A DNA stretch of 50,553 nt from Methanomassiliicoccales archaeon (GTDB taxonomy: Archaea; Thermoplasmatota; Thermoplasmata; Methanomassiliicoccales; JACIVX01), in assembly GCA_029907465.1 (NCBI GenBank), contig JARYLV010000012.1, positions 1-50,553 on the forward strand, given 5' to 3'. The notes beneath the pieces are model-generated. The model was given only the letters and a program-made list of their open reading frames with translations. It had not been told where the DNA came from and made no database searches. Each line of letters starts with the position of its first letter. Position 1 is the stretch's first letter. Shown in pieces: positions 37,092 to 50,553 of this stretch. The translations under genes were made by a program, and so were the position numbers.

Positions 37092-38750
37092 TCACGCCGG
37101 AGGAATGATCAATGTCCTTTCACCAGCGGGTCTGAATTCCCTCAGCCCACCACGGCCGAACTCTCTCGTGACATTTGCGAAGTCAAATGGTAGGTGCTTG
37201 TCCGCAAAGGCAACTTTGATCAGCGGGTTGCACACGAACGCGTCGCCCCTAGCTACATGAGCAGCGTTGGCAATCCCAGCGTATCCACTCAGATGTCCGA
37301 CGTTCATCGCATAGTTCGGGTAGTTCGGTCCTCTCAGCTCAAAGGGCAAGCCCTCGTCGCTTCTATAGGAGAAGCTGTTCGCAGAACCGCACTGATCTTG
37401 CAGGTCATATCCGTAGAACCCGAGTCTGCCTAGGCGCTCCTTGTGCTGCAGCATCGAGAGATACCAGCCGTTAACACCTACATCTGCAATACCCGTTGCC
37501 ATTGCCGCCGCAATACCACTTGCAGCCGCAGCAACAGTTGCTCTCTGGGACCCGCCGAAGTGCGTTTCCATAACGGCTGGATATCGCTCATACATCTCCA
37601 GTGCGTAGGAGTTGACCTCAGTAACCAGCTCCTCGATCATATCCATAGAGGGCTTTGCCTTCGCAAGACCGCCGTATTTCTTCTTGATCAGATCTACAGC
37701 GTAGTACGTGTAGTCCTCCAGGATGTTGTCAGTGTATGCAGCGGTCGCATATTGGGTGAACCCTACACCACCGGACATGTACGATCCTAGGTATATCTGA
37801 TCATAGATGACAGCACCGAGTGCTACGGCCTCGAGCGCAGCCCTTGCTGGGTCATCAGGATATTTCCTGAATGATTGTGTCATATCCGCAAGATATCCGA
37901 ATGGAATACCTCCTGGCTCGTTAGGTCCTCGTGCCCTCCTCGCTGGCATCATTGTACCCATCTCGACGACAGCTGCGTGCTTCGCAGCGAACGCAAAGTC
38001 GGCGATCGCCGCTTCTCCGGCAGCGAGTTTGTACGATGTAATGAATGCCATGCTAATCTGCATCGCACTCCATCTCGACATCGTTGCACCGTCGCAGGTA
38101 CGACCAACGATCGTTGGGCATCTGACGACCTGCCATAGGGTATTCCCAATCGCTTCCTTGAGCTGCTTTGCCTGCTCTGGCGGGAACTCCTTGTTGATGT
38201 CAATGACAAAGCACTTGTCAATCTCATCAATCAATTCATCATTTCCGCTGAAGACCTTCACATAGCAGTCAGCCGTCAATGCCGGGCTGCACTCTGCCAT
38301 GTGCTCCTGGACGACAGCACCGCCAGGCATCGTGTGGTTAACAGCCTCCAAGTAAGTGTTGATCGTCTCAGGTGTAACCTCTTTCCCAAGCCTCTTTTCG
38401 ATGACCTGATGGGCCGTGTCCAGACCAACGATAACCGTTCTTCGTATATCGTCCCAAGCCTGCTGCATCGCGGCGTTGTTTATGAAATGCAGATCGTCGG
38501 CCTCCACAAATATGTCCGTGTGAGACAACTGATAGGGCATCAGTACTCTCTGACCGAGAGGAACACCGATGTCCTGGTTCATCGCAGGAATGCCTCTCTC
38601 CTTCGCGATCTTATTAGCCTGCTCGACCCATTCCCGCTTCCTCTTTGACTGCCTCCAGCCGCCAAAGGAATAGTATGTCGTGTGGACCTCAGTGGGGTCT
38701 TCCTTGAATTTTTTCTTTACAGCCTTTATAAAAAGCTTCTCATCGGCCAT
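37092..38750 (-). CDS. mcrA: Methyl-coenzyme M reductase alpha subunit
   Basis: 552 residues, full length. With McrB and McrG it forms the heterohexamer that reduces methyl-CoM with CoB to methane using nickel F430. Active-site residues are present: Gln148 (axial Ni ligand, GGAVVQEHM), Tyr334 region ([16 protein letters not shown]), and the modified sites His258 (N-methyl, [11 protein letters not shown]), Arg272 (methyl-Arg, [13 protein letters not shown]), Gln402 (methyl-Gln, GGSQRATV) and Gly447 (thioglycine, in [11 protein letters not shown]) with Asp452 and Cys454. Modification states cannot be read from DNA. The sequence is of the methanogen type, not of the alkyl-CoM type. It is the fourth gene of the operon. 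Confidence 0.98.
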
Positions 38751-38753
38751 TGA

Positions 38754-39527
38754 TTATACCCCCTTCAGTGCAAATGGCTGGAATCCAGCCAGCGTTCTCA
38801 ACCTGTGGATCCTCAGGTTGACCATCATAACCTCTTTGTCCTCTCTCATGTCGACGCCGTCGACCCTGAACATCGTCGTCCGCTTCTTCAACTCCTCTTC
38901 CGGCAGCGGCTTGCCAACCGAAATCGGCTTGTCCAGAGGAATGGCAACCTGGTCTTTTACGTATTCAACCTCGCCCTTCTTTGCATTCCAGCGGTACCTC
39001 TGCCATGCATCGAACATAAGGCCGTTCTCATCAAGACGGCACGCATGTCCGTGGACAGTCGCACCTCTGATACCCGTCCTAGCAGGATCGAACGTCTCGC
39101 TCTCAATGAGCTCCTTCGCTACCTTCTCGAGGTCACGCTCTCTCATCTCAATAATCTGTCTTCCAGAGAGTGTACCAGTGTCGACGCCCCTAAACCTGCT
39201 GACGTTCATCCATGCTCTGACGTAAGGCACAATCGGCGCAAAGTACACCGAGTCAGTGAATTGGACATATCGGATCCTGTCCCCAGCCTTTGCACCTGGC
39301 GTTGGTTCAACTAACTGCCTGATCGGGCAATCTGGCTCAGTTCCTTCCTCCAGTGGCGGGTGAACGCTCTTGTATTCTTCACCCGGCTGCCGGTGACCGA
39401 GTATTTTCACGACGTCTTCCATAGAAAGCTCGCGTAGCTTGTCGAGCTTGACGTTCGGGTCTATGTATCGGCGTCTGTTCTTCGCCGGAATTGTTGTCCC
39501 GGGATAGAACTGCCTCTTATACGCCAT
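38754..39527 (-). CDS. mcrG: Methyl-coenzyme M reductase gamma subunit
   Basis: 257 residues, full length ([25 protein letters not shown] start). The family features [19 protein letters not shown] and [21 protein letters not shown] are present; it contributes residues contacting F430 and the coenzymes. An ATTTAAATCACC-type gap separates it from mcrD, and it precedes mcrA by 3 bases. Confidence 0.97.
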
Positions 39528-39532
39528 TTAAA

Positions 39533-39961
39533 TCACCTCACTCCTTTTTTATAATCGGAAACAGTAGGCCTATATTTCGAATACCTTCCAACCTCCAAGT
39601 CGAAGCCAAACGGCAAGATCTCTTTACAGATTTCCTCAATGTCCTTCAAGGCCGCTTCAACATGATCGATATCGTCAATTTCAACGAAAATACGGCCAAC
39701 CTGGACCTTGAGTTCCGTCTTCTTTCCCGCTACTTCGATCACTCTCCTTTCACTGTGATCCACGTCGAGACCTGCTCCTGGACCCATAGTGATCTTCTCT
39801 GGGAGAGATTCGCCCTGAATATTGATCTGTCTCACGTGCTTGACTGTATACAACTTGTTCAACAATTTTTCTGTCGTCGCAGCCGACAAAAGCCTCGACG
39901 GGAAAATCATGATCTCCGGTAGCGGTACCGGCTCCGGCATGGATTCGGCAGGCATCTTCAC
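39533..39961 (-). CDS. mcrD: McrD, MCR operon protein D
   Basis: 142 residues of McrD ([45 protein letters not shown]). McrD is not part of active MCR. It binds the immature apo-enzyme and is thought to act as an assembly chaperone, perhaps for F430 insertion. It overlaps the end of mcrB by 4 bases (coupled). Confidence 0.95.
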
Positions 39962-41286
39962 ACCATTTCCTTCAGCTTCTTTGCCTCTTTTCCGACCATC
40001 TTTATAGGTGACTTAAACTCAGGTATGTCACCGAATACCTCTTTCACAAGCCCTGATGTTGCTTCAGCGGAGAACATCTGTGTGCCAGCATCTAATGCAC
40101 AACCAGCAGCAATCGCAGGAATCACAAAGCCCTTTGAGTGCCTCGTGACGATATGGTTCCCATGGAAGAGACCTGGCCCACCTCCACCGTAGATCGAGTG
40201 CGAGAAGAAGGACATCCCCACAGATGTACCCATCGCACGACCAAAGTCGACACCCGGCAATCCGGTCTCATGCTCGAGCAGATCATTGTAGTACAATATC
40301 GTTGACGGTACACCTTGCGCCGCTCTCGCTGCACCGCAGTTAACCATGATCGCACAAAGCATACCCGCAGCTGCGTACGCATTCCACAGTGCGAAATCAT
40401 TGGTTGTGTAGACCTTATATCCAGAGGGCAACTTCTCCTTTACCTTGATAACTTTGTCCTCAATCGCCCTCCCTACAATTGATTCAACTACGCTCCCTAC
40501 TGTGCCTGTTTTTCCGTTCTCCTTGACGATTTCATAGACCATATTGTTCGCGTTGAGACCCTGGTATGCGAGCCCTAGCAAGTGCATCCGCTCGAATGGT
40601 CCGATCGCATCGCCCATCTCGAACATCGCAGTTTGCTCAAATATTGACGCAAGAGCCGCTGCATTCATTGCATTCCTACCGGTCAATGCCACAATGTGGT
40701 TTGCCATAATGTTCCTCAATGCATACCCTGCGCCTTCGTTGTTCTGGGGAACCTCCAAAATCGACTTAACGTTGGCTCCCAGAAAGTTCAGAGTCTGGGG
40801 ATATCTCCCCCATACGGCAGCCTTAACCATGTTGGCTCGGAACATATCGATGTCGAAAAGCTCGATAATCGCTTGGGTCACCGCTGCGGCGGCTGCAGTA
40901 AATCCAGTTGTGTATTCAGCGCCAGCCTCCAGCCGCACCGAGGGTACTTTCACGATCATCCTCTTGCCGTCCGCCAATATGCTGACCTCCGTATCGTCGT
41001 TCTGAGCGACTTTTAGGATATCGCGGACAGCCCTCGCAATCTTTGCCGCATTCGCGACAAGCGGGACATCGATCTCCTTGCCCTTGATGTGTCCGCCGCC
41101 AACCTTCCCGGTTTTTAGAGACTTTTCAATCCCAGCAAGGTCGACAGCGACAACTCGCTTGGCCAAGGACACCGTTCTCTTGATGGCAGGGTTATACAGA
41201 GGACTGATGGCTTCCAGTGGCACATCCCTTTCAATTAGCTTGCCCCTGTCGTCATACAAGTCTACTTTGTCCTTGTATTTCGCCAT
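39958..41286 (-). CDS. mcrB: Methyl-coenzyme M reductase beta subunit
   Basis: 442 residues, full length, first gene of the operon. Features include [19 protein letters not shown] at the start, and [36 protein letters not shown] near residues 360-400 with the coenzyme-B and F430 contacts. A GGGAGGT ribosome-binding site is 7 bases before the ATG. The TATA box at 41384-41391 implies a leader of about 70 bases. Confidence 0.98.
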
Positions 41287-41383
41287 TCAATACCTCCCTT
41301 TTTCTAGATTTTCACCGACCTTGGAAAGCTTCCTCGGACGATGAAAATCAGTCCCCTTGCGTTATTTCATTAAAACGAGCTAG

Positions 41384-41391
41384 CTTATAAT
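41384..41391 (-). promoter_or_regulatory. TATA box of the mcr operon
   Basis: ATTATAAG on the minus strand, about 95-105 bases upstream of the mcrB ATG. It predicts a transcription start near 41360 and a leader of about 70-75 bases. Confidence 0.6.
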
Positions 41392-41397
41392 TTTGAT

Positions 41398-41420
41398 TAT
41401 GGATGGATACTCCATCCATA
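41398..41420. promoter_or_regulatory. Operator-like palindrome TATGGATGGA-TAC-TCCATCCATA
   Basis: Perfect 10-bp arms (41398-41407, 41411-41420) with a 3-base spacer. It ends 6 bases upstream of the mcr TATA box, i.e. it touches the BRE position, suiting an activator or a BRE-blocking repressor. It shares the core GGATGGA/TCCATCC with the site at 34295-34317. Confidence 0.7.
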
Positions 41421-41485
41421 CTAAACAATCGATTAAATCATAGATCGATCCAGTTAGACCGAATAGACGACTTAACGTGCATTTA

Positions 41486-42136
41486 TTATTTTTCTTGCTG
41501 AATTAAATTTTTTATGGTTGTGATAACCAATTCCGCGTCCGCCTTCTTGAGGTCCCTTGCGCAATTTAATAAGTATTCTCGGAGCCTGATAAATTCATTT
41601 CTTTTCAATTTCTCGCATGCAATTTCTAGGGCCTTTTCATAGGATCTTTCAGGAAAATAAACCGCCTTTAGCTCGTTGATAATGTCTTTGCTTTGCGATT
41701 CCGTAATGATGCCTCGATCGACAGCACGCTCAAGATTGTACCGAATATTAATAAGCGCCTCTGAAAGGGGCTCCAGCGTTTCAGGATTGAATATAATGGC
41801 GACCTCATCATCACCCTCAATCACACCCGATGAATACATATCAAATATCCTCCCAACACCGATCATTCCAAAGTCTTTCAGTTCCGAAGCCCGTAGGGCG
41901 CCCATACTGCCACCCCCTACAACGGTGATACCCCTTTCCAATAAGCCAATGATTTCACGATGACCTACAGCTGAGTCACTGAAAAATATTCCATCGATAA
42001 TGCCAACGACGACGTTCTTTTCACCATAAATCGAGACCAAATCCCCTCGTTTCACCGGAGGCCTATAATCTGCGTCCAGGATGTTCCTTGCTTCGGTGTG
42101 CGATAAGCTTGGACCAAGGAAGATGATGGCTTTCAG
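41486..42136 (-). CDS. tfuA: TfuA-like partner of YcaO, probable CTG start
   Basis: TfuA works with YcaO to replace the backbone oxygen of a glycine by sulfur, giving thioglycine in McrA; TfuA is thought to deliver sulfur. The open frame has no ATG/GTG/TTG before 42055, yet upstream codons in frame encode KAIIFLGPSLSHTEA, the family's conserved N terminus. A GGAGG followed after 7 bases by CTG (42136-42134), overlapping the ycaO stop as CTGA, gives a 216-residue protein of normal TfuA length. I therefore place the start at CTG. The GGGSMGALRASEL motif (typical of TfuA) lies near residue 80. It is cotranscribed with ycaO. Confidence 0.88.
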   Translation of the reverse strand: MKAIIFLGPSLSHTEARNILDADYRPPVKRGDLVSIYGEKNVVVGIIDGIFFSDSAVGHREIIGLLERGITVVGGGSMGALRASELKDFGMIGVGRIFDMYSSGVIEGDDEVAIIFNPETLEPLSEALINIRYNLERAVDRGIITESQSKDIINELKAVYFPERSYEKALEIACEKLKRNEFIRLREYLLNCARDLKKADAELVITTIKNLIQQEK

Positions 42137-43338
42137 GTCGTCGCCTCCATTAATCTACGGCCTACACGTTCCTCATCCATTGCAAAGACTTCCAGTCCTG
42201 GAACTATAATCCTAACAACTGGGACTCCCAACTCTTCTCGCGTAAGGTCGACCGCAATCACTTTTCTAAATCCTCTTTTTTTGAGTTGATCAAGAACGAA
42301 TAATATGTCGTCATAAATATCCATTGAATCAAGCCTATCGATCTCGGAGACCTTTTTTTCATTTCCCGAATTCGAAAACCACATCCTGTTGATCGATTTC
42401 GTTTTTTCATATCCGAGTTTCTGTCGGAACCTGGCATTGATTGTGTCCTCCCTCGCCCCGTGGATCTGCGTCACTCTGCTTTGTGCAGCTTCGGTCAGTG
42501 CACGGATCGCTGCAACATGAGGATTCAGATGCGTTCCGATGCCCATGACCAGCAGTGTCGGGTCTTTCGTTTGCCAGTCATCAGCCGCTACGCCAATCGT
42601 CGGGATTCCGATGTCGCTTGTCAACTCCTTCATATGGATGCGAATGCCTTGCGACTCAAACTTTTGCACCAAGTCATAAACGAGTCCATTCTCAGCATCA
42701 AAAGATAAATCCGACTTTACGCACCGCTTGACCTCACATATAGACCATGCATCTCTTTCAATCACCTCACAAAGCCCATGTAGAACGGCCTCTTCCAACG
42801 AGTTCCCTGAGGCAAGACCATTTGTGTTGGATCTAAAAAGCGTCATGTCCAGGCGCGAAGTATATGGGTGGAAAACAGCATTTGCTGGTACCCAGATACG
42901 CTCCATTTCGTTGAGTTCAACCCCCTCAACCCAGGCAATCGACTGGAAATCAACATGGAAAAGGGACGTCTTAGGTAAAATGAGATCGCTCGGATGAATT
43001 GCATATCTTGAAGACAGCATTTCATCAGGTTTTGCCCTGACGACCTCGCGATCTTTTTGTTCAGCGCTGTATCTCTCCAGTCCTTCCATTATCGCTGAAA
43101 CCTTTGCCTGTTCCTTTGTTGCCCCCTTTCCATTGTAAACGCTCACCGCACCTGATTCGGCAGATGGCCTGATGCTCGAATAGACAGGGATGCCCACTCT
43201 ATCGAGGCCCGTGATGTCAGCGATGCGGGTAATACCAGCAATCTTGCATAACGGTTCAACGCGCTGGAGCGTCGTCTTCGGATCGACGATACGATGTCCA
43301 TCAAACAGGTATTTTTTTGGAGAGGGGCCCAACCTCAT
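42133..43338 (-). CDS. ycaO: YcaO thioglycine synthase (methanogenesis marker 1)
   Basis: 401 residues of the YcaO family, methanogen type. It uses ATP to activate the backbone amide of McrA glycine (Gly447 here), so that it becomes thioglycine. ATP/Mg-binding glutamates lie in SAIMEGLERYSAEQ and in the GLCEVIERDAWS segment; a C-terminal VRIIVPGLEVFAMDEERVGRR is typical. It precedes tfuA (CTGA overlap), and both lie upstream of the mcr operon on the same strand but with a separate promoter region. Confidence 0.95.
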   Translation of the reverse strand: MRLGPSPKKYLFDGHRIVDPKTTLQRVEPLCKIAGITRIADITGLDRVGIPVYSSIRPSAESGAVSVYNGKGATKEQAKVSAIMEGLERYSAEQKDREVVRAKPDEMLSSRYAIHPSDLILPKTSLFHVDFQSIAWVEGVELNEMERIWVPANAVFHPYTSRLDMTLFRSNTNGLASGNSLEEAVLHGLCEVIERDAWSICEVKRCVKSDLSFDAENGLVYDLVQKFESQGIRIHMKELTSDIGIPTIGVAADDWQTKDPTLLVMGIGTHLNPHVAAIRALTEAAQSRVTQIHGAREDTINARFRQKLGYEKTKSINRMWFSNSGNEKKVSEIDRLDSMDIYDDILFVLDQLKKRGFRKVIAVDLTREELGVPVVRIIVPGLEVFAMDEERVGRRLMEATT

Positions 43339-43450
43339 GGATTCATGCCTCTCTCTTGAACATCTAGCGCACCCTTATTAAAGATTTGTTATTTCCAGTA
43401 TTCTTATATTGATCTTTAGATTGACCTATTTCGATGTCAATTTCTGGGGT

Positions 43451-43921
43451 CTATGCGCCCCCTGATTTCCCACATACCATGTCAAAATCAGCATCAGGAT
43501 TCAAAACGATCCTTTCAATGAGGATATCGACCTCAACGTTCTGAATCTGCGGTATCGTAAGTATTTTCCCCTGGATTAAGAGGTAGAGGCTGTCGACGCT
43601 CTTAGTGTAAACCTCGCATATCAGTGAGTGGTCCCCAAATACTTTGTGGATATACTCAATCTCCTCAAATTTCTTGAGTTCCTCGATGACTGAATTAATT
43701 GCAGAACCAACCACTTCTAGGAGAATGAGCGCCCTCATGACTCCCATTCTCGATAGGTTCATCACAGTCGTGTATCCTGATATATATCCCTCTTTCTCCA
43801 TCCGTGAGATTCTTCGGCTCACAGTCGCTTTTGAAACGCCGAGTTTTTCTGCGATATTTCCCAGACTTTCCCTCGAATTTAACCTCAAAATTCTCAATAT
43901 CTCAATATCCAATTTGTCCAC
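43451..43921 (-). CDS. Lrp/AsnC-family transcriptional regulator
   Basis: About 156 residues: N-terminal HTH (KLDIEILRILRLNSRESLGNIAEKLGVSKATVSRRISRMEKEGYI) and C-terminal RAM ligand domain (ALILLEVVGS..., IEYIHKVFGDHSLICEVYTK). The start GTG at 43921 has GGAGG 7 bases upstream. It is 113 bases upstream of ycaO on the same strand but has its own gap, so it may be separate. The ligand and targets are unknown. Confidence 0.88.
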   Translation of the reverse strand: MDKLDIEILRILRLNSRESLGNIAEKLGVSKATVSRRISRMEKEGYISGYTTVMNLSRMGVMRALILLEVVGSAINSVIEELKKFEEIEYIHKVFGDHSLICEVYTKSVDSLYLLIQGKILTIPQIQNVEVDILIERIVLNPDADFDMVCGKSGGA

Positions 43922-44282
43922 AAGAATTCCTCCGAGCAAACTCTTCTCGGAAAATTGATCTCTGTTTTTTACAATCCATTACAGCCACTGAGGTTTTCTG
44001 ATTTGAAACTTGCATCGACTAATAATTGATTATCATTATACTAAAGGATATCGAGAAAATGAAACGAAACCACTAAAATAAGACCTATCAGCGTAACAAC
44101 AATACAACTGAATAATAATTTTGTTTTATATTCTGATGAAGGAATAATTTCACATCGACCCATCAGCATTCTGAACCCTGTTGAAAAAAATAGATGAAAA
44201 TTGACCGCGAAAAACGTTTTGTAGTTTGGATATGGGAGCATCTCATTAAGGATGCGCCCAATCTTTTTGCAGCAGACAAGGA

Positions 44283-44984
44283 CTACTTCGCTCTTGATTT
44301 TGGAATCGGTCCCGATCCAAGTTTTTCCAAAATCCTCACGACTTCCTCTAATTTTGCAGCTGGGATACCAGCATACATTTCTTCGGGAGCTACGTCCGTG
44401 CTCCTCCTACACCCAAAGCATCCAAGCGAGATGTTAATATCACCAGTCAGATACGGGATAATCGTTGAATCAACGCACGTAGCTTGCATCGATGCAGTGT
44501 TGATCGTAACTCTCCCGCCCTTTTCGAAGGTCGCGGCCACGGGGAGTATCCAATATAACTGCTCTGGCGTCCCAACCACCACGACGACATCCGGCGGGAC
44601 TTTCGCCTTGCTCAGCGGACTCACGACCGTCCCAATTACGCTACCTAGAGGGAGTGTAGGACGCGCATCGATCATCCTTTTTGCTGCATCCGCACTACTA
44701 AACATCCCGAGATTATAATGAAATTCTCCAGAAGCGACCTTCTCTGGCGTTGCGACAATACCAAGGGCGGAAGCACCAACAGGGCATGCATGTTTGGCAG
44801 CGGGTATCCACATGACTTCCCCCTTTCTTGCCCTCATAATAGACTGGCAATGCCGCAGATTACTCTCGACTTCCTTGTATCCTTCCGGCGGTGACTGTCC
44901 GCTTTTGATCAACGTAACGGCTACTGGTTCATATTTGAGTCCAAGTATGTCGACCAACTTTCTTGAAATCTCAGAATAATCCAT
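44283..44984 (-). CDS. DUF169 family protein
   Basis: About 233 residues of DUF169. Typical blocks are EPVAVTLI near the N terminus, LRHCQSIMRARKG, HACPVGASALGI, and C-terminal ISLGCFGCRRSTDVAPEEMYAGIP. The four-plus conserved cysteines suggest metal or cofactor binding. Function is unknown; members are common in methanogens and anaerobes and sometimes lie near corrinoid methyltransferase genes. The start ATG 44984 is supported by GGTGA; the open frame extends 19 codons upstream. Confidence 0.85.
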   Translation of the reverse strand: MDYSEISRKLVDILGLKYEPVAVTLIKSGQSPPEGYKEVESNLRHCQSIMRARKGEVMWIPAAKHACPVGASALGIVATPEKVASGEFHYNLGMFSSADAAKRMIDARPTLPLGSVIGTVVSPLSKAKVPPDVVVVVGTPEQLYWILPVAATFEKGGRVTINTASMQATCVDSTIIPYLTGDINISLGCFGCRRSTDVAPEEMYAGIPAAKLEEVVRILEKLGSGPIPKSRAK

Positions 44985-45264
44985 ATATTCTTCACCATGT
45001 CGTGTTACCTTGAAGTCAATATTTATAGATGTCGAAATCAAATTCGTGAATCTGGATTATTACGACTTGTAATCATGCAATCCTATGCATGGTTTATTTA
45101 CAAAATGATTGTTTTGGATTACAGATTATAAAATAAGGGGGTATGGGGGGGGGAAGATTCTTCGTCATAAATAACCTTGAAAAAAAGGCGAGTATTATTA
45201 CACCTCAAATGACAAATAGTATTAGGACAAAATAATTTGGGATCACAGTTGGATTGTTGAGATC

Positions 45265-46035
45265 ATGGAGAATAAACTTAATTGGCCGCTCGTGTCTGGT
45301 GATTACGAACTAGGATCGAACGATTCTCCAGTTGCCATCGTGATCATCGGCAGGGGCATCGTGGATTTGCCTCCTGATCAATTCAATATCAAAGGCACAT
45401 TAAAGACTGAGAATATCGGAATAGAGAAAATCATAGCAAACGTCATAAGTAACCCTAGAATCCGTTTCCTCATTGTTTGTGGAAAAGATGAGTTCGGACA
45501 TTTCCCTGGTGATGCACTAGTCAGTTTGGGTAGAAATGGCGTTGACGAACGAATGAGGATCAAGGGGACAAAGTCTGCAATTCCGTATCTGTGCAATATA
45601 CCAAAGGAAGCCGTTGATCGGTTCATGAAACAGGTGGAAGTGATCGATCTCGTGCATCCTAAAGAAGTCGAAGAGATTATCGCATACGATCCTGCGTACC
45701 ATTTTGACGAGGAAAGAACAGAAGAACTTCTTGAGACGATTGAAGAATGCAACAACCGTGATCCAGGCCCCATGGACGTCGAACCATTTATAGTGGACAG
45801 CCCGGCGCTCATGATGGGGGGATCCTGGATCGGAAAATCACTCAACCTAGCATCAGATAAGTTCGCCTCCCATATGCTCCGACTTTCGAGTGAAAAACTA
45901 GCCACATCGGCATCGCTCGCCGTGGTGTCAGAAGAATTCGGTGTCATGCTCGATCCGATCGACCATGAGATATTTCTCGTTCCTTCAGTTTCTCTTGCCA
46001 TAAAAATCAGATCATATTTGACAGGTGGTGCATAA
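45265..46035 (+). CDS. mtrA: MtrA-like corrinoid protein lacking a membrane anchor
   Basis: 256 residues. The first ~160 match the corrinoid-binding domain of MtrA: WPLVSGDYELGSNDSPVAIVIIG, VCGKDEFGHFPGDALVSLGRNGVD with the cobalt-coordinating His79, and GTKSAIPYL. Canonical MtrA ends in a membrane helix that anchors it in the sodium-pumping Mtr complex. Here the C terminus (to IRSYLTGGA) is polar, so the protein is probably soluble. MtrH starts 2 bases after its stop. A TATA-like CAAAATAAT about 30 bases before the ATG suggests a short leader. It is likely the methyl carrier between MtrH and a CoM methyltransferase. Confidence 0.9.
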   Translation: MENKLNWPLVSGDYELGSNDSPVAIVIIGRGIVDLPPDQFNIKGTLKTENIGIEKIIANVISNPRIRFLIVCGKDEFGHFPGDALVSLGRNGVDERMRIKGTKSAIPYLCNIPKEAVDRFMKQVEVIDLVHPKEVEEIIAYDPAYHFDEERTEELLETIEECNNRDPGPMDVEPFIVDSPALMMGGSWIGKSLNLASDKFASHMLRLSSEKLATSASLAVVSEEFGVMLDPIDHEIFLVPSVSLAIKIRSYLTGGA

Positions 46036-46036
46036 A

Positions 46037-46927
46037 GTGTTCAGATTTCAAAATACACAGCATATTTTTGAGATCGGAGGCATTCCGTTTGGTGGCCAGC
46101 CCGGGATAAGGAGGACCGTAATGATCGGTTCCCTATTCTATCCAGGTCACAGCATCGTTGAAGATCGCGCGCACGGAAAAGTCGATGTTGATCGGTTAGA
46201 GGAAATAATCAATGGCCTCGAAGATACGATTGATGAGACAAAAACACCAGCAGCTCTCATGATCTACGGGGAAACGGCTGAATCGATCGTTTCGTATCTT
46301 AACATTATTTCAGATCGCTCCAGTTTGCCACTTTTCATCGACTCACCAAGCCCGGAAGTCAAATTGGCAGGTGCAAAGAGCGCTACTGAAATGGGTCTTG
46401 CTGAAAGACTAGTCTACAATACCCTAAGCGTTGGAACTTCGAAACAAGAATTTGAAATGGTGAGCCAGATAGGTATCAAAGCGGCAGTGCTTCTCGCGTT
46501 CAACCCGCGCAACTTCGGTGTCAAGGGTAAGATTTACCTATTGGAAAATGGCGATGGCATGTTGGAAGATGGATTAATAGAATTGGCACGTCGTCATGGC
46601 ATCGAAAAGCCGCTTATTGATGTCGCTGTCATGTCGATGGACCAGAGTGCGGGTTCTGCTCTAAGGGCACTGATCGTTTCAAAAGCGAAATGGGGGATCC
46701 CAACGGGCTGTGCGCTTCATAACGTTGTTGAGTCCTGGTCGATGCTTGTAAGATTGAAAGAAAAAGATGCACGGATATACAGGCACGTTGACATCGCATC
46801 CGCGGCAATCCCGATCATGGCCAGTGCGGACTTTGTGATGTACGGTCCGATCGAATATGCCCGAACGGTGTTTCCAATTGCTGCGCTGGCAGATGAACTC
46901 GTGAGGCAGGCGACTTCAGACATTTAG
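46037..46927 (+). CDS. mtrH: MtrH-like methyltransferase subunit
   Basis: 296 residues with the MtrH TIM-barrel: MFRFQNTQHIFEIGGIPFGGQPGIRRTVMIGSLFYPGHSIVED at the start, then DSPSPEVKLAGAKSATEMGLAERLVYNT and the C-terminal MASADFVMYGPIEYARTVFP. MtrH moves the methyl group from methyl-tetrahydromethanopterin (or, in related enzymes, other methyl donors) to the corrinoid of MtrA. The frame is open to a GTG at 46025, but the GTG at 46037 gives the usual N terminus, with AGGTGGTG upstream. It forms a two-gene operon with mtrA; no other Mtr subunit follows. Confidence 0.93.
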   Translation: MFRFQNTQHIFEIGGIPFGGQPGIRRTVMIGSLFYPGHSIVEDRAHGKVDVDRLEEIINGLEDTIDETKTPAALMIYGETAESIVSYLNIISDRSSLPLFIDSPSPEVKLAGAKSATEMGLAERLVYNTLSVGTSKQEFEMVSQIGIKAAVLLAFNPRNFGVKGKIYLLENGDGMLEDGLIELARRHGIEKPLIDVAVMSMDQSAGSALRALIVSKAKWGIPTGCALHNVVESWSMLVRLKEKDARIYRHVDIASAAIPIMASADFVMYGPIEYARTVFPIAALADELVRQATSDI

Positions 46928-47045
46928 TAGAGCTGTTATCGCTAATTGATTTTCGATCCACTCACAACATTGGTTCCCAGTTTCGATCAGATTAATCATT
47001 TAGCTAACTAAATAAAAAATGCTGTGCTTTCACCAGATTGCAATT

Positions 47046-47903
47046 CTAAACAACTATTTCACTTCCGACCGACATCAACTCGAAACCAGTGAATCTGTCC
47101 GAGATGAGTTTCATGGCCTCAAATCCAGTGCAGTGCATTGGGACCACCCTTTCGACTCCTAAGTTCTTCAAGTGGTCCATCGTCTTAAGTAACCTATCTG
47201 TATCACCACAATATAAGTGAAAACCGCCTGCGATCATAAATATCTTCGATCCAGTCGATTTCTTTGCCTGGTGCACGATGTTGACGATACCCGCGTGCCC
47301 GCAACCGACGACGATGATCAACCCTTTTCTTGAGCTGACGTAAAGAACCTGCTCGTCGTTGAAATTATCGCCAACGAGATTTTCGCCTTGCTTGATCACA
47401 TAATTCCCAGGTGCTTCGAAGGGGAATTGACGAGTGATCTCTCCAGACGCCCTTACCCCTTCAACGATCTCGGTCATCGTTGATACGAACTTGATGTTAC
47501 AGGTGGCGAGGCTCTCGGCTACCCTCTCAGGAATTGAGATATCAATCATTTTCTCATTATTGACTGCAAAACGGGGTCTCACTAGAGCTTTCGGATGCAT
47601 GAATATAGGAACGCCCACCTTTGCGAACGCAGCAAGACCCCCTGCATGGTCGTAATGCCCGTGTGTGATGAAAACAGCATCGATTTTGTCTACACTCAAT
47701 CCCAGGAGTGAAAGGTTATGAAGGAGTACTTCTTCTGAAGCACCCGTATCGACAAGCACGCGCTGTCCTTTGTCCGTTTCTATAAGCATCGAGAAGCCAT
47801 GTTCCGAAAGAAAATGTGTTGCTGGTGAGTCTAATCGCTTCACCAATCCCGAGGGCGAGTAGGGAGGTGCTGATGTATTGTCAACAACAGAGATTAGGCG
47901 CAC
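47046..47903 (-). CDS. Metallo-beta-lactamase-fold protein, dihydropterin synthase-like
   Basis: 285 residues. The zinc motif is HGHYDH (81-86), with VVGCGHAGIVNIV and a C-terminal VVPMHCTGFEA. The closest type I know is the archaeal MBL protein that joins the dihydropterin and ribofuranosylaminobenzene phosphate parts of methanopterin (MJ0301-like). This would link it to the C1 carrier used by MtrH. Other MBL hydrolases look similar, so the exact reaction is uncertain. Start is GTG at 47903, overlapping the end of ramA by 10 bases, so the genes are coupled. Confidence 0.85.
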   Translation of the reverse strand: MRLISVVDNTSAPPYSPSGLVKRLDSPATHFLSEHGFSMLIETDKGQRVLVDTGASEEVLLHNLSLLGLSVDKIDAVFITHGHYDHAGGLAAFAKVGVPIFMHPKALVRPRFAVNNEKMIDISIPERVAESLATCNIKFVSTMTEIVEGVRASGEITRQFPFEAPGNYVIKQGENLVGDNFNDEQVLYVSSRKGLIIVVGCGHAGIVNIVHQAKKSTGSKIFMIAGGFHLYCGDTDRLLKTMDHLKNLGVERVVPMHCTGFEAMKLISDRFTGFELMSVGSEIVV

Positions 47904-49555
47904 TTACTGTTCAACTCCTCCCTTTTCACAATCTTCAGTTCATTGAATTTCAAGACACTGTTTGGGCAGACCTGCTCGCAGTTCTTACACGCTGTCCCTA
48001 GGCAATACTCAGTTGCGATTCTAATCCTGTACTCTTTCCGGTCGATTTTCTCGACCTTGAGCGCTTGCTCGGGACATTCCATCTCGCACCTCTTACAACC
48101 TGCACAACCCTCGAATGAACCGATGAGGAAGACACCGACATGCTCAAGAGTCTTCAATCCCTTCGATCCAACTTCTGGAATATCTCTATCAACAATTCTA
48201 AGCGTCTCCTTCGGTCTCACGATATCAGGCAGAGGAGATAAACCTGAGAGTCTCAGCATTTTGTTGTAATATTCCATCGGCATACCCTCGAGCCAATAGG
48301 CGACCTCGTTGATGTAAATGTCCTCGAAGATCTTTGATGTCGCAAACATAATGTGTTTGGAAGCTATCGAATCAGCCACAGACTGCATCATATCCATTAC
48401 CGATGGATCGACCAATAGGTCATAAGCCATCATTAATGAAGTGTTCCCGACCTGCACTGTTTTTTCGACAACACGGGGAACCAGACCACATGTCTGTGCC
48501 TTGTATGGGTCGACGTAAGTACCAGATGCGCCAGCCAAATACATGGTCTTAACATCCGCATCCCTGATCCCTACCTCCTCAATCAAAGTCTTATGTCCTG
48601 CTCGAATCGCTCCCATCGCTTTTCCAGCCTCATGAAGGTCCTTCTCGTTGAATGTTATCCCATCCTGGAAATGAAGAATCCTATCCTTCGTTGCAATTCC
48701 AGGCAATTTGATCAAACCAGTTTCGAGACCAAGAGCCACAGCTGCGACGACGCCTGTTCCCGTAATTCCTCTTGCTTTTATATTGTCGAGTTTCTTAAAA
48801 TCTCCAGTTGAAGGGTTAATCAATGACGCTCTTCGTGGGCCCAGACGCTCGTCGAGAACAAAATTAGCCCAGTACCCATCACTCTCTACACTGAGATCAG
48901 ATATAGCATATGGCGCTGCAAGCATTCCATGTGAGATATGCTGCCCCTCCATAGCGGGACCTGCGGCGGCACTCCCGCTGTATAATTCACCATCATGGTA
49001 TAGCCCCATCTCAGCGTTCGTACCATAGTCTGTGACCATACATGTCTCTTTCTTTTCCAGCATCTTTGACTTAATGATCATTGCAAGGGCATCCGCGCCA
49101 ACCTCGTGCCTGATCGCTGGCGGGATAGCGACCTCCGTCTCAGGCCCTACAGCCGTCAGTCCAATCGCCCCAGCTGTTGTCGTATGTCCCCTTCTATTGG
49201 GTCTTGTTATATTGAAACGCCTGAGAATCGATTCACCAGCGTATGCGAGGTCCCGAATCTCAATGCCTTCAAACATTGAGAGCTGGGCTGGATTTCCGCA
49301 AACAGCAATCCTTACAATCTCTTTGCAATCAACGCCATGAAGTGCTATGAGTTTATCGACAGTCTCGAGAATAATCTTATGGCCCACCTCAGCACCATTT
49401 TCGATCCAAAAATGAAGGTGATCCATTATATTGGCACCTGGCAATGGATGTCTCATCGTAATGGCCGTCGATATGATCTTTCCTTTATTCGATAAATCCA
49501 CTAGATGCGTTCTGTAACCACTAGTTCCCAGATCAAGAGCTATTCCGTAAGCCAT
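47894..49555 (-). CDS. ramA: RamA-type corrinoid activase with C-terminal ferredoxin domain
   Basis: About 553 residues. The N-terminal part has ASKHA ATPase strands (GIALDLGTSGYRTHLVD), a large DUF4445-like middle (TTTAGAIGLTAVGPETE, YGTNAEMGLYHDG, TGTGVVAAVALGLETGLI), and two [4Fe-4S] motifs at the C terminus (CAGCKRCEMECP and CKNCEQVCP). RamA uses ATP and low-potential electrons to re-reduce cobalt(II) of methyltransferase corrinoids to the active cobalt(I). The start ATG at 49555 is preferred over a GTG at 49567. Being next to mtrA-mtrH and an MtaA-like gene, it most likely activates the soluble MtrA. Confidence 0.9.
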   Translation of the reverse strand: MAYGIALDLGTSGYRTHLVDLSNKGKIISTAITMRHPLPGANIMDHLHFWIENGAEVGHKIILETVDKLIALHGVDCKEIVRIAVCGNPAQLSMFEGIEIRDLAYAGESILRRFNITRPNRRGHTTTAGAIGLTAVGPETEVAIPPAIRHEVGADALAMIIKSKMLEKKETCMVTDYGTNAEMGLYHDGELYSGSAAAGPAMEGQHISHGMLAAPYAISDLSVESDGYWANFVLDERLGPRRASLINPSTGDFKKLDNIKARGITGTGVVAAVALGLETGLIKLPGIATKDRILHFQDGITFNEKDLHEAGKAMGAIRAGHKTLIEEVGIRDADVKTMYLAGASGTYVDPYKAQTCGLVPRVVEKTVQVGNTSLMMAYDLLVDPSVMDMMQSVADSIASKHIMFATSKIFEDIYINEVAYWLEGMPMEYYNKMLRLSGLSPLPDIVRPKETLRIVDRDIPEVGSKGLKTLEHVGVFLIGSFEGCAGCKRCEMECPEQALKVEKIDRKEYRIRIATEYCLGTACKNCEQVCPNSVLKFNELKIVKREELNSKCA

Positions 49556-49806
49556 AGGAAGTACCACCGGTAATTATGATTTCCCTATTTAAAAGTGCAC
49601 ATCCTGAGATTCTGGCCGAACGAAATAAACAAAAAATCTGGCATATTTAAGCATTCGCAGGAGAATTATAATAAGATTTTACCGGGCATAGGGAAAAAAT
49701 ATCCACATCGTTTCATCAGCGGACCATGTCGTTTCAATAAATCTCCACATCATCCTTCTTATTGCGCAGTCATCGATCTGCATTATAGATCGACCAGATA
49801 GAATAA

Positions 49807-49838
49807 TAAAAAAATTTAGAAGGGAATCCCGGATTCCC
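49807..49838 (-). terminator. Terminator after the MtaA-like gene
   Basis: On the minus strand a perfect 8-bp stem (GGGAATCC, loop G, GGATTCCC; 49838-49822) is followed by TTCTAAATTTTTTTATT. It lies 12 bases beyond the stop codon of the partial gene. Confidence 0.65.
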
Positions 49839-49849
49839 ATCTTCCAGCT

Positions 49850-50553
49850 CTAACCTTTTACCGCATTTACTAGGGCTTGAATATTGTTTTTCGGTACCCG
49901 CGCGGCAAGGCCGCAACCTGGAGCAACAAGGTGGAATCCTGCCTGCGCAACTCTCTTGGCGTCCCTTGTCACGTCATCAGGTGTTCCTTGGAGCAACGGT
50001 TTCACGACGCCGACATTCCCAATGAGTGCTGCCTTGTTATTCACAATTTCGACTGCCTTCTCTGGAACAACCTTCTCTTCAATGCTCAAGCCGTCAACGC
50101 CTGTCGCCATCATGTGTTCCAAGAGTATCGTTGTATCTCCACAGATGTGGAGAACCCTCTTTGCCTCAACCCCTGAAAACGCTTGCTTGATGTAAGGTGC
50201 AGCAAACTCATCGAACATCTCGCCTGAGAGCATATCGGTTGACGCTGATGGATCGCTCATCACGATGACATCGGCACCTGCGGCAGCAATGGCCTTGACA
50301 TATTGGTGTTCGATTTCGGCCGCGATTTTCAGGAACTTGTGAACTGAGTCAGGATCTGTGATGATCCACAACAGGATGTTCTCAGTCCCGACAAGATGTC
50401 CGGCGATCGTAAATGGCCCTGTCGTCCCAACAACGACTGGTAATTTACCCTCGGCCTTCTTTTTCAAAATCTTTGTCGCTTCGATAACCACTTTCGCACG
50501 ACCACGGCTCGCAAAATCCTTTGGAATTTCCACCTCGCTGGAAGCTTCATACG
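49850..50553 (-). CDS. MtaA/MtbA-like methylcobamide:CoM methyltransferase, 5' end outside window
   Basis: C-terminal ~234 residues of a uroporphyrinogen decarboxylase-fold methyltransferase. The zinc ligands that activate the CoM thiol are visible as HxC in LHICGDTT and Cys in VAPGCGLA. GTTGPFTIAGHLVGTENILLWIITDP and VIVMSDPSASTDMLSGEMFDEFAAPYI are typical of MtaA/MtbA. The open frame continues to the window edge, so the annotated end is not the start. It would transfer the methyl group from a methylated corrinoid, plausibly MtrA here, to CoM. The same fold occurs in HemE, but the C-terminal HxC...C zinc set favours the CoM methyltransferase. Confidence 0.88.
   Translation of the reverse strand, partial: YEASSEVEIPKDFASRGRAKVVIEATKILKKKAEGKLPVVVGTTGPFTIAGHLVGTENILLWIITDPDSVHKFLKIAAEIEHQYVKAIAAAGADVIVMSDPSASTDMLSGEMFDEFAAPYIKQAFSGVEAKRVLHICGDTTILLEHMMATGVDGLSIEEKVVPEKAVEIVNNKAALIGNVGVVKPLLQGTPDDVTRDAKRVAQAGFHLVAPGCGLAARVPKNNIQALVNAVKG

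Follow-up and report, generated by a model that had tools for sequence, protein, structure and literature searches.

The window analysed here, a stretch of 50,553 nucleotides which represents one complete contig, encodes a soluble MtrA–MtrH pair in a genome with no match to MtrE. On balance, the pair is likely to exchange methyl groups between methyl-THF and CoM by a soluble route uncoupled from sodium; in this lineage, which lacks the methyltransferases MtaB and MttB, the probable direction is towards methyl-CoM. The idea of a soluble mtrAH is not new, since such genes were described in Methanomassiliicoccales in 2018 and proposed to encode an N5-methyl-THF:CoM methyltransferase (Speth and Orphan, PMC6147122). 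New here are the co-occurrence of MtrA and MtrH (32/32 genomes) and the pattern relating the lack of MtaB and MttB to the presence of mtrAH.

Gene arrangement and the soluble MtrA

The following genes were assigned in the analysed part of the window:

44283..45041, − strand, DUF169 protein, divergent neighbour (PF02596, 3.8e-64)
45265..46035, + strand, mtrA-like, soluble corrinoid protein of 256 aa (PF04208, E=4.9e-48, 163.5 bits)
46037..46927 (alternative start 46025), + strand, mtrH-like pterin:corrinoid methyltransferase (PF02007, E=5.1e-84, 282.4 bits)
47046..47903, − strand, metallo-beta-lactamase-fold (MBL) protein (PF00753, 1.3e-16)
47894..49567, − strand, RamA-type corrinoid reductive activase (TIGR04270, 720 bits, cut-off 500)
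49850..50551, − strand, MtaA-like methylcorrinoid:CoM methyltransferase, partial (PF01208, 4.2e-55; best NCBIfam matches PRK06252 and MtaA)

The mtrA and mtrH genes are separated by 1 bp, or overlap if the start at 46025 is used, and the MBL and ramA genes overlap by 10 bp. Since mtrA and mtrH on the + strand converge with MBL–ramA–mtaA on the − strand, the two sets do not form a single operon.

The initial annotation described MtrA as retaining the corrinoid-binding histidine and devoid of a C-terminal membrane helix, and both features were confirmed. The corrinoid-ligand histidine of the solved MtrA structures aligned with the histidine of the motif CGKDEFGHFPGDAL of the window protein, G78-H79 was invariant among the aligned homologs, and the PF04208 profile match was found together with the catalytic His79. 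The highest hydropathy over 19 residues was 1.22, as compared with 2.0–3.1 in three MtrA proteins from mtr operons, and neither a membrane helix nor an anchor was found in MtrA. The protein is composed of an N-terminal MtrA domain (residues 5–140) and a C-terminal domain (about 170–256). In the AlphaFold model (pLDDT 87.9) the N-terminal part matched 5laa/5l8x, and an alpha-beta domain was located in the C-terminal part, where MtrA of the complex has its anchor. This C-terminal domain showed no match in Pfam and no fold match in the PDB; modelled in isolation, it gave a pLDDT of only 74.6.

The genome (96% complete) contained exactly one MtrA and one MtrH. MtrE gave no match in the whole genome, although the MtrE of both M. 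jannaschii and M. acetivorans was recovered as a control, and next to the pair no gene for MtrB, C, D, F or G was seen. In agreement with the earlier description of a pair lacking the sodium-pumping membrane part, neither a second MtrA nor an MtrE, which would speak against a soluble route, was present elsewhere in the genome. The putative CoM site in the solved Mtr complex is located within MtrCDE (PMC10998594); with no sodium-pumping membrane part, any CoM step therefore needs another protein.

The assignment of ramA and an mtaA-like gene beside the pair was upheld. RamA was the sole match over the TIGR04270 cut-off among the matches listed for the genome and contained Fer4 domains, with a 4Fe-4S domain at the C-terminus. 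The MtaA-like protein showed the Zn ligands H-x-C...C; only its C-terminal part, about two thirds, is encoded in the window because the gene runs past the contig end, and a full-length MtaA ortholog from the same genus reached 380.8 bits (cut-off 400). The argument from adjacency to a shared route proved weak, because the same mcr-tfuA-ycaO-ramA-mtaA-corrinoid island occurs without mtrAH in four genomes (G010, G013, G016 and G019). With mtrAH-less genomes serving as the control, these neighbours need not serve MtrA, and RamA and MtaA were not accepted as MtrA-specific partners on the strength of gene adjacency. In one genome (G025) a URO-D gene overlaps mtrA, the gene order being URO-D-mtrA-mtrH. 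The DUF169 gene is a recurrent member of the island, and two genomes (G059 and G033) have it there in the absence of mtrAH; its product is not needed for the proposed mechanism. No support was obtained for the suggested role of the MBL protein in the methanopterin pathway, as its matches were only generic MBL-fold proteins, the nearest solved relatives being TM1679 and 2p4z.

MtrH and the C1 carrier

The window MtrH scored 276.6 against TIGR01114 (cut-off 271.4) and 186 bits against the MtgA equivalog NF047990 (cut-off 550). The grouping expected initially, either with subunits of the Mtr complex or with MtgB-like donors, was not observed: in the tree MtrH formed a separate clade with support of 100/99, and its identification either as an MtgA-like donor or as an MtrH of the complex was rejected.

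Residues of MtrH were evaluated according to PMC12774963 (pterin head, basic patch 239/242/243 and residue 5; M. mazei numbering), where the basic patch was proposed to bind the H4MPT tail. The four pterin-head residues were kept, DNDN being found in 30/35 proteins of the clade, including the window MtrH. The full basic triad was present in 30/30 MtrH of the complex versus 0/35 MtrH of the window clade. The window protein has V/K/E at positions 239/242/243 and Gln at position 5, and Asp5, which forms a salt bridge with MtrB, is replaced in the clade. Some positive charge is left in the patch of the window MtrH (V-R-L-K-E-K), which counts against the explanation preferred here. Pyrrolysine insertion or other recoding in MtrH was discarded, as the in-frame TAG or TGA codons of several relatives (one each) are the normal C-terminal stop where read in frame.

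Mch was absent from 61/61 Methanomassiliicoccales genomes, and both ftr and mch have been reported absent (PMC10804542). The THF branch of the genome is of bacterial type, with Fhs, FolD, MetF and an AcsE-like protein, together with CooS-AcsB. One contig (C17) carries the genes for Fhs, FolD, a FocA-like transporter, MetF with MetV-like, MvhD-like and HdrA-like genes, and the AcsE-like methyl-THF:corrinoid protein methyltransferase, and another (C5) those for a CooS-AcsB fusion, AcsC, AcsD and an AcsV-like activase. The MetF linked to HdrA/MvhD could conserve energy at the step that forms methyl-THF. Three further corrinoid proteins were found in the genome, one of which adjoins two URO-D genes on contig C6.

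Distribution in Methanomassiliicoccales and the proposed methyl route

The sample consisted of 61 Methanomassiliicoccales genomes, 32 with and 29 without mtrAH. MtrA and MtrH occurred together in every genome having either, and are adjacent in nearly all loci. The search for substrate methyltransferases covered MtaB and MttB. Routes from mono- and dimethylamine or from methyl sulfides (Mts) may exist in addition; methyl-sulfide use has been reported in fen members of the order (PMC10805028). All genomes without both MtaB and MttB (19/19) carry MtrAH, and none of the MtrAH-less genomes (0/29) lacks both (Fisher test, 1.2e-7, a value which ignores relatedness, the genomes not being independent). 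MtaB was kept in 13 MtrAH genomes; neither MtaB nor MttB was found in the source genome or in any of the six genomes sampled from its family. MetF was found in 28/32 MtrAH genomes versus 10/29 of the others, and CODH/ACS in 31/32 versus 13/29.

The prevailing view is that all Methanomassiliicoccales are methylotrophs with an obligate dependence on H2. Should mtrAH channel methyl groups from methyl-THF into methyl-CoM, those members that have no methyltransferases for methanol and trimethylamine could form methane from formate/CO2. In that case an acetogen's folate pathway would support methanogenesis without the sodium-pumping Mtr, giving an example of a methanogen swapping its C1 carrier and changing the possible diet of these common archaea in wetland and hot-spring habitats. 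Both the 19/19 pattern and the comparison of MtrH residues offer ways of checking this idea.

In the pathway for which we infer the substrate, the partner enzyme and the direction, MtrH, a TIM barrel, would catalyse methyl exchange between N5-methyl-THF and the Co(I) corrinoid carried by MtrA. The exchange between MtrA and CoM would be mediated by a zinc methyltransferase of the URO-D type, for which the neighbouring MtaA is the most likely candidate, and RamA would re-reduce the corrinoid which has slipped to Co(II). Methyl-THF would be supplied from formate via Fhs-FolD-MetF, and in a lineage without MtaB and MttB the net flow would probably lead to methyl-CoM and Mcr. A more far-reaching proposal, which we regard as rather doubtful, is that methyl groups enter methanogenesis in these organisms mainly or solely through soluble MtrAH: formate/CO2 would be converted to methyl-THF by the acetogen-type folate route, and methane formed from it by way of MtrH, MtrA, an MtaA-type enzyme and Mcr, without H4MPT and without the sodium-pumping Mtr.

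The same enzymes might operate with a reverse net flow, in which methyl groups donated by methyl-CoM or a different methylcorrinoid reach THF by way of MtrA and MtrH, for acetyl-CoA synthesis (AcsE) and C1 biosynthesis or for oxidation to formate. AcsE-like protein, MetF and bacterial-type ACS are available to consume methyl-THF, such a flow makes sense in the 13 genomes retaining MtaB beside MtrAH, and methanol disproportionation to formate by this route has been proposed (PMC6147122). It seems a possible but rather unlikely main direction, since all genomes lacking MtaB and MttB keep MtrAH, which fits better with supply of methyl-CoM than with its use, and methyl-THF is obtainable from formate by Fhs, FolD and MetF without MtrAH. 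The initial annotation had taken tetrahydromethanopterin (H4MPT) as the methyl partner of a soluble Mtr, in keeping with the homology to MtrA and MtrH and the score of the latter above the TIGR01114 cut-off; the absence of Mch and ftr, the bacterial-type THF branch and the incomplete basic patch make this partner probably wrong, and the reading as a whole very unlikely.

Two other functions were considered for the pair. By analogy with MtgA and its partner MtgC, MtrH might exchange methyl groups with a corrinoid protein other than MtrA, the latter being one partner only. A candidate is CorrC1 (contig C32), which resembles MtgC (189 bits against the MtgC_2 family, cut-off 370) and whose ortholog in another genome (G002) shares a gene run with RamA and MtaA. 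However, CorrC1 is found also without MtrH, MtrH falls far below the MtgA cut-off, and the adjacency and strict co-occurrence of MtrA and MtrH render this highly improbable. MtrA as mainly a methyl donor to methionine synthesis rather than to CoM is also disfavoured and is to be considered very unlikely: in other methanogens MtrA has been predicted to supply the methyl group to the methionine synthase MesA, but Methanomassiliicoccales are reported to have only MesB, a predicted user of the CFeSP corrinoid (PMC7857596), and MtrAH is missing in 29/61 genomes of the order.

Relation to known Mtr-type systems

Like MALP ('Lake Pavin', PMC6147122), the source organism has only mtrA and mtrH without membrane subunits, a C-terminal extension of MtrA and a divergent MtrH, as well as a THF branch with no role for H4MPT; the methyl-THF:CoM methyltransferase activity is a proposed one in both. 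MALP differs in having mtaABC for methanol, as compared with the MtaB- and MttB-less source genome and its six sampled family members. UBA472 (L110), named as closely related to MALP (PMC6147122), falls in the same MtrH clade as the window protein.

With the MtrABCDEFGH complex the pair shares the corrinoid domain of MtrA, the MtrH fold and the pterin-head residues, but it lacks MtrE, the MtrA membrane helix, the MtrB-contacting Asp5 of MtrH and the full basic tail patch. In the MtxX-MtxA-MtxH system of Methanosarcinales (group II mtrA, PMC4632066) a soluble MtrA homolog likewise adjoins an MtrH homolog; in contrast, no mtxX-like gene was present among the neighbours scanned (41.5–50.5 kb), and the window MtrA has an additional C-terminal domain. 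MtgA, the methylcorrinoid:THF methyltransferase of Desulfitobacterium (6SJ8), is also a THF-linked member of the MtrH family without the full basic patch, whereas it pairs with an MtgC-type corrinoid protein and occupies a different branch of the tree. MtrAH without the complex has been described in other archaea (PMC9635834). The soluble pairs of Thermoplasmata, Altiarchaeales and Undinarchaeales (loci L131-L148) resemble the window pair in that the genes are adjacent and no membrane part was seen beside them, but their MtrA is mostly shorter, without the C-terminal domain, and their MtrH forms a separate clade.

The soluble MtrA-MtrH pair

The mtrA and mtrH genes lie at the right end of the window, which is one entire contig (C12) of a 1.72-Mb, 96% complete genome (G000), and the three genes that follow converge on them:

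45265-46035, + strand, mtrA
46037-46927, + strand, mtrH, 1 base from mtrA or overlapping it
47046-47903, converging on mtrAH, MBL gene
47894-49567, converging on mtrAH, ramA
49850-50551, converging on mtrAH, mtaA-like gene interrupted by the contig end

To the left of mtrAH were found genes for DUF169 and an Lrp-like regulator, ycaO and tfuA (McrA thioamidation), and mcrBDGA, in which mcrB, mcrD and mcrG were assigned by position and sequence. The closest named relatives were Methanomassiliicoccales MAGs (MtrA of locus L097, 86% identical).

The PF04208 match spans residues 5-140 of MtrA, and the ligand His is kept. No hydrophobic anchor was present in this MtrA, its maximum hydropathy being 1.22 as compared with 2.0-3.1 in three mtr-operon MtrAs. 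The genome encodes one MtrA and one MtrH, and a search of its 96% complete sequence gave no MtrE. The soluble pair proposed in the initial annotation was thus confirmed, neither a second MtrA elsewhere in the genome nor a C-terminal membrane anchor being found.

A soluble mtrAH is on record for this order from the work of Speth and Orphan (PMC6147122), whose 'Lake Pavin' Methanomassiliicoccales genome has mtrAH but no mtrB-G; they remarked on the C-terminal extension of MtrA and the divergent MtrH, and proposed a role as N5-methyl-tetrahydrofolate (THF):CoM methyltransferase. Most environmental clades carry mtrA and mtrH, and H2/CO2 methanogenesis was speculated for them (PMC10804542); MtrAH without the complex outside this order is treated in PMC9635834.

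The N-terminal part of the MtrA AlphaFold model (pLDDT 87.9) matches the solved MtrA structures 5l8x and 5laa. The C-terminal domain, modelled as a helix, three strands and a helix, had no Pfam or PDB match, and its isolated model was of moderate confidence only. Among named homologs it was seen in Methanomassiliicoccales and one Methanomethylicota-labelled MAG (L124). At loci L119, L120 and L122, MtrA has this domain and a shorter GREDGH motif, and MtrH was undetected within 6 kb.

The pterin used by MtrH

The tetrahydromethanopterin (H4MPT) link suggested initially was not borne out; absence of Mch, the C1 gene set and, at the level of alignment, the MtrH residues with their incomplete basic patch point to THF. 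Mch was found in 0/61 genomes of the order by a search that detects it in the controls M. jannaschii and M. acetivorans. Contig C17 of G000 encodes formate-THF ligase, FolD, a FocA-type transporter, an AcsE-like methyl-THF:corrinoid methyltransferase and MetF accompanied by MetV-like, MvhD-like and two HdrA-like genes (L202, 8431-13429). The latter group resembles the Moorella MetFV-Hdr arrangement, and energy might be conserved at the methylene-THF step. Contig C5 encodes AcsD, AcsC, an AcsV-like activase and a CooS-AcsB fusion (L201, 4391-8467), in which a CooS-type CO dehydrogenase catalytic subunit and acetyl-CoA synthase share a single 1358-residue open frame. The fusion and the AcsE-like and AcsV-like proteins form a bacterial-type Wood-Ljungdahl set inside a methanogen.

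The pterin-head residues of M. mazei MtrH are D103, N129, D196 and N230; the H4MPT tail was proposed to be held by a patch of the basic residues R239, K242 and K243 (PMC12774963). In our alignment the full basic triad was present in 30/30 MtrH of the membrane-bound complex versus 0/35 of the Methanomassiliicoccales clade (at most one residue), and the pterin-head residues were kept in 30 of these 35. The corresponding stretch in the window is V-R-L-K-E-K, so some charge is left. At the MtrB-contacting residue 5, 29/30 complex MtrH have D or E, a position taken by Q, L, H or K in the Methanomassiliicoccales clade, which the IQ-TREE tree separated (support 100/99) from both complex MtrH and MtgA, the THF-linked enzyme of Desulfitobacterium.

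One genus of family f6 has very divergent MtrH homologs (~74 bits) close to MtrA (L118, 6759-7562; L093, 6645-7445); their pterin residues are altered (DGND, DGDH), and their function may have changed. A contig labelled Candidatus Nitrosotalea (L175) carries MtrA and an MtrH grouping with Methanophagales, and is probably misbinned.

The probable methyl route and its possible directions

Judging from sequence, MtrAH probably works in the order methyl-THF, MtrH, MtrA, CoM. Formate would be converted to methyl-THF through Fhs, FolD and MetF, MtrH would transfer the methyl group onto Co(I) of MtrA, and a zinc methyltransferase of the URO-D family would hand it to CoM, with oxidised corrinoid rescued by RamA. 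Methyl-THF is lower in energy than methyl-H4MPT; therefore, the MtrAH step should be near equilibrium, leaving little for a sodium pump. A similar energetic remark on methyl-THF was made in PMC6147122.

Of the 61 genomes, which are MAGs of varied completeness, the 32 with MtrA are also the 32 with MtrH; CODH/ACS was found in 31/32 and MetF in 28/32. Neither MtaB nor MttB was detected in G000 or in any of the six genomes of its family. Both are missing in 19/61 genomes, all 19 with MtrAH, and in 0/29 MtrAH-less genomes, the count covering MtaB and MttB and the Fisher values being descriptive, with relatedness ignored. The pattern covers several families and includes G044, whose family otherwise lacks MtrAH. 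Loss of MtaB and MttB is consistent with forward flow from methyl-THF to CoM, and the members keeping MtaB are consistent with reverse flow. Three further corrinoid proteins are encoded in G000, so a methyl source other than methyl-THF is possible there; methyl-sulfide genes have been reported in fen members of the order. One of the three, on contig C6 (L200, 1280-15245), lies between two URO-D genes with an AcsV-like activase, an aldehyde ferredoxin oxidoreductase and genes resembling CoA transferase and acyl-CoA synthetase, possibly a further methyl-substrate route.

CoM transfer and the ramA-mtaA island

The putative CoM site of the Mtr complex is in MtrCDE (PMC10998594), subunits missing in G000 as far as tested (MtrE searched). 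A URO-D enzyme would be the natural substitute: the window MtaA keeps the zinc ligands H-x-C and C, and G025 has the gene order URO-D-mtrA-mtrH, with the first two genes overlapping. The adjacency of ramA and mtaA, initially read as a sign of partnership with MtrA, proved unspecific, since the island mcr-tfuA-ycaO-ramA-mtaA-corrinoid is complete without mtrAH in G010, G013, G016 and G019, and similar in G059 and G033, also without mtrAH.

This island (window 37092-50551), mcrA-tfuA-ycaO-ramA-mtaA-(hyuA)-corrinoid protein, is conserved across Methanomassiliicoccales, mtrAH present or not, and no recognised substrate methyltransferase adjoins its corrinoid protein. The gene between mtaA and the corrinoid protein repeatedly encodes an ASKHA protein of the hydantoinase/oxoprolinase type (L198, 387-2369; L207, 5539-7533), which could be a second corrinoid activase.
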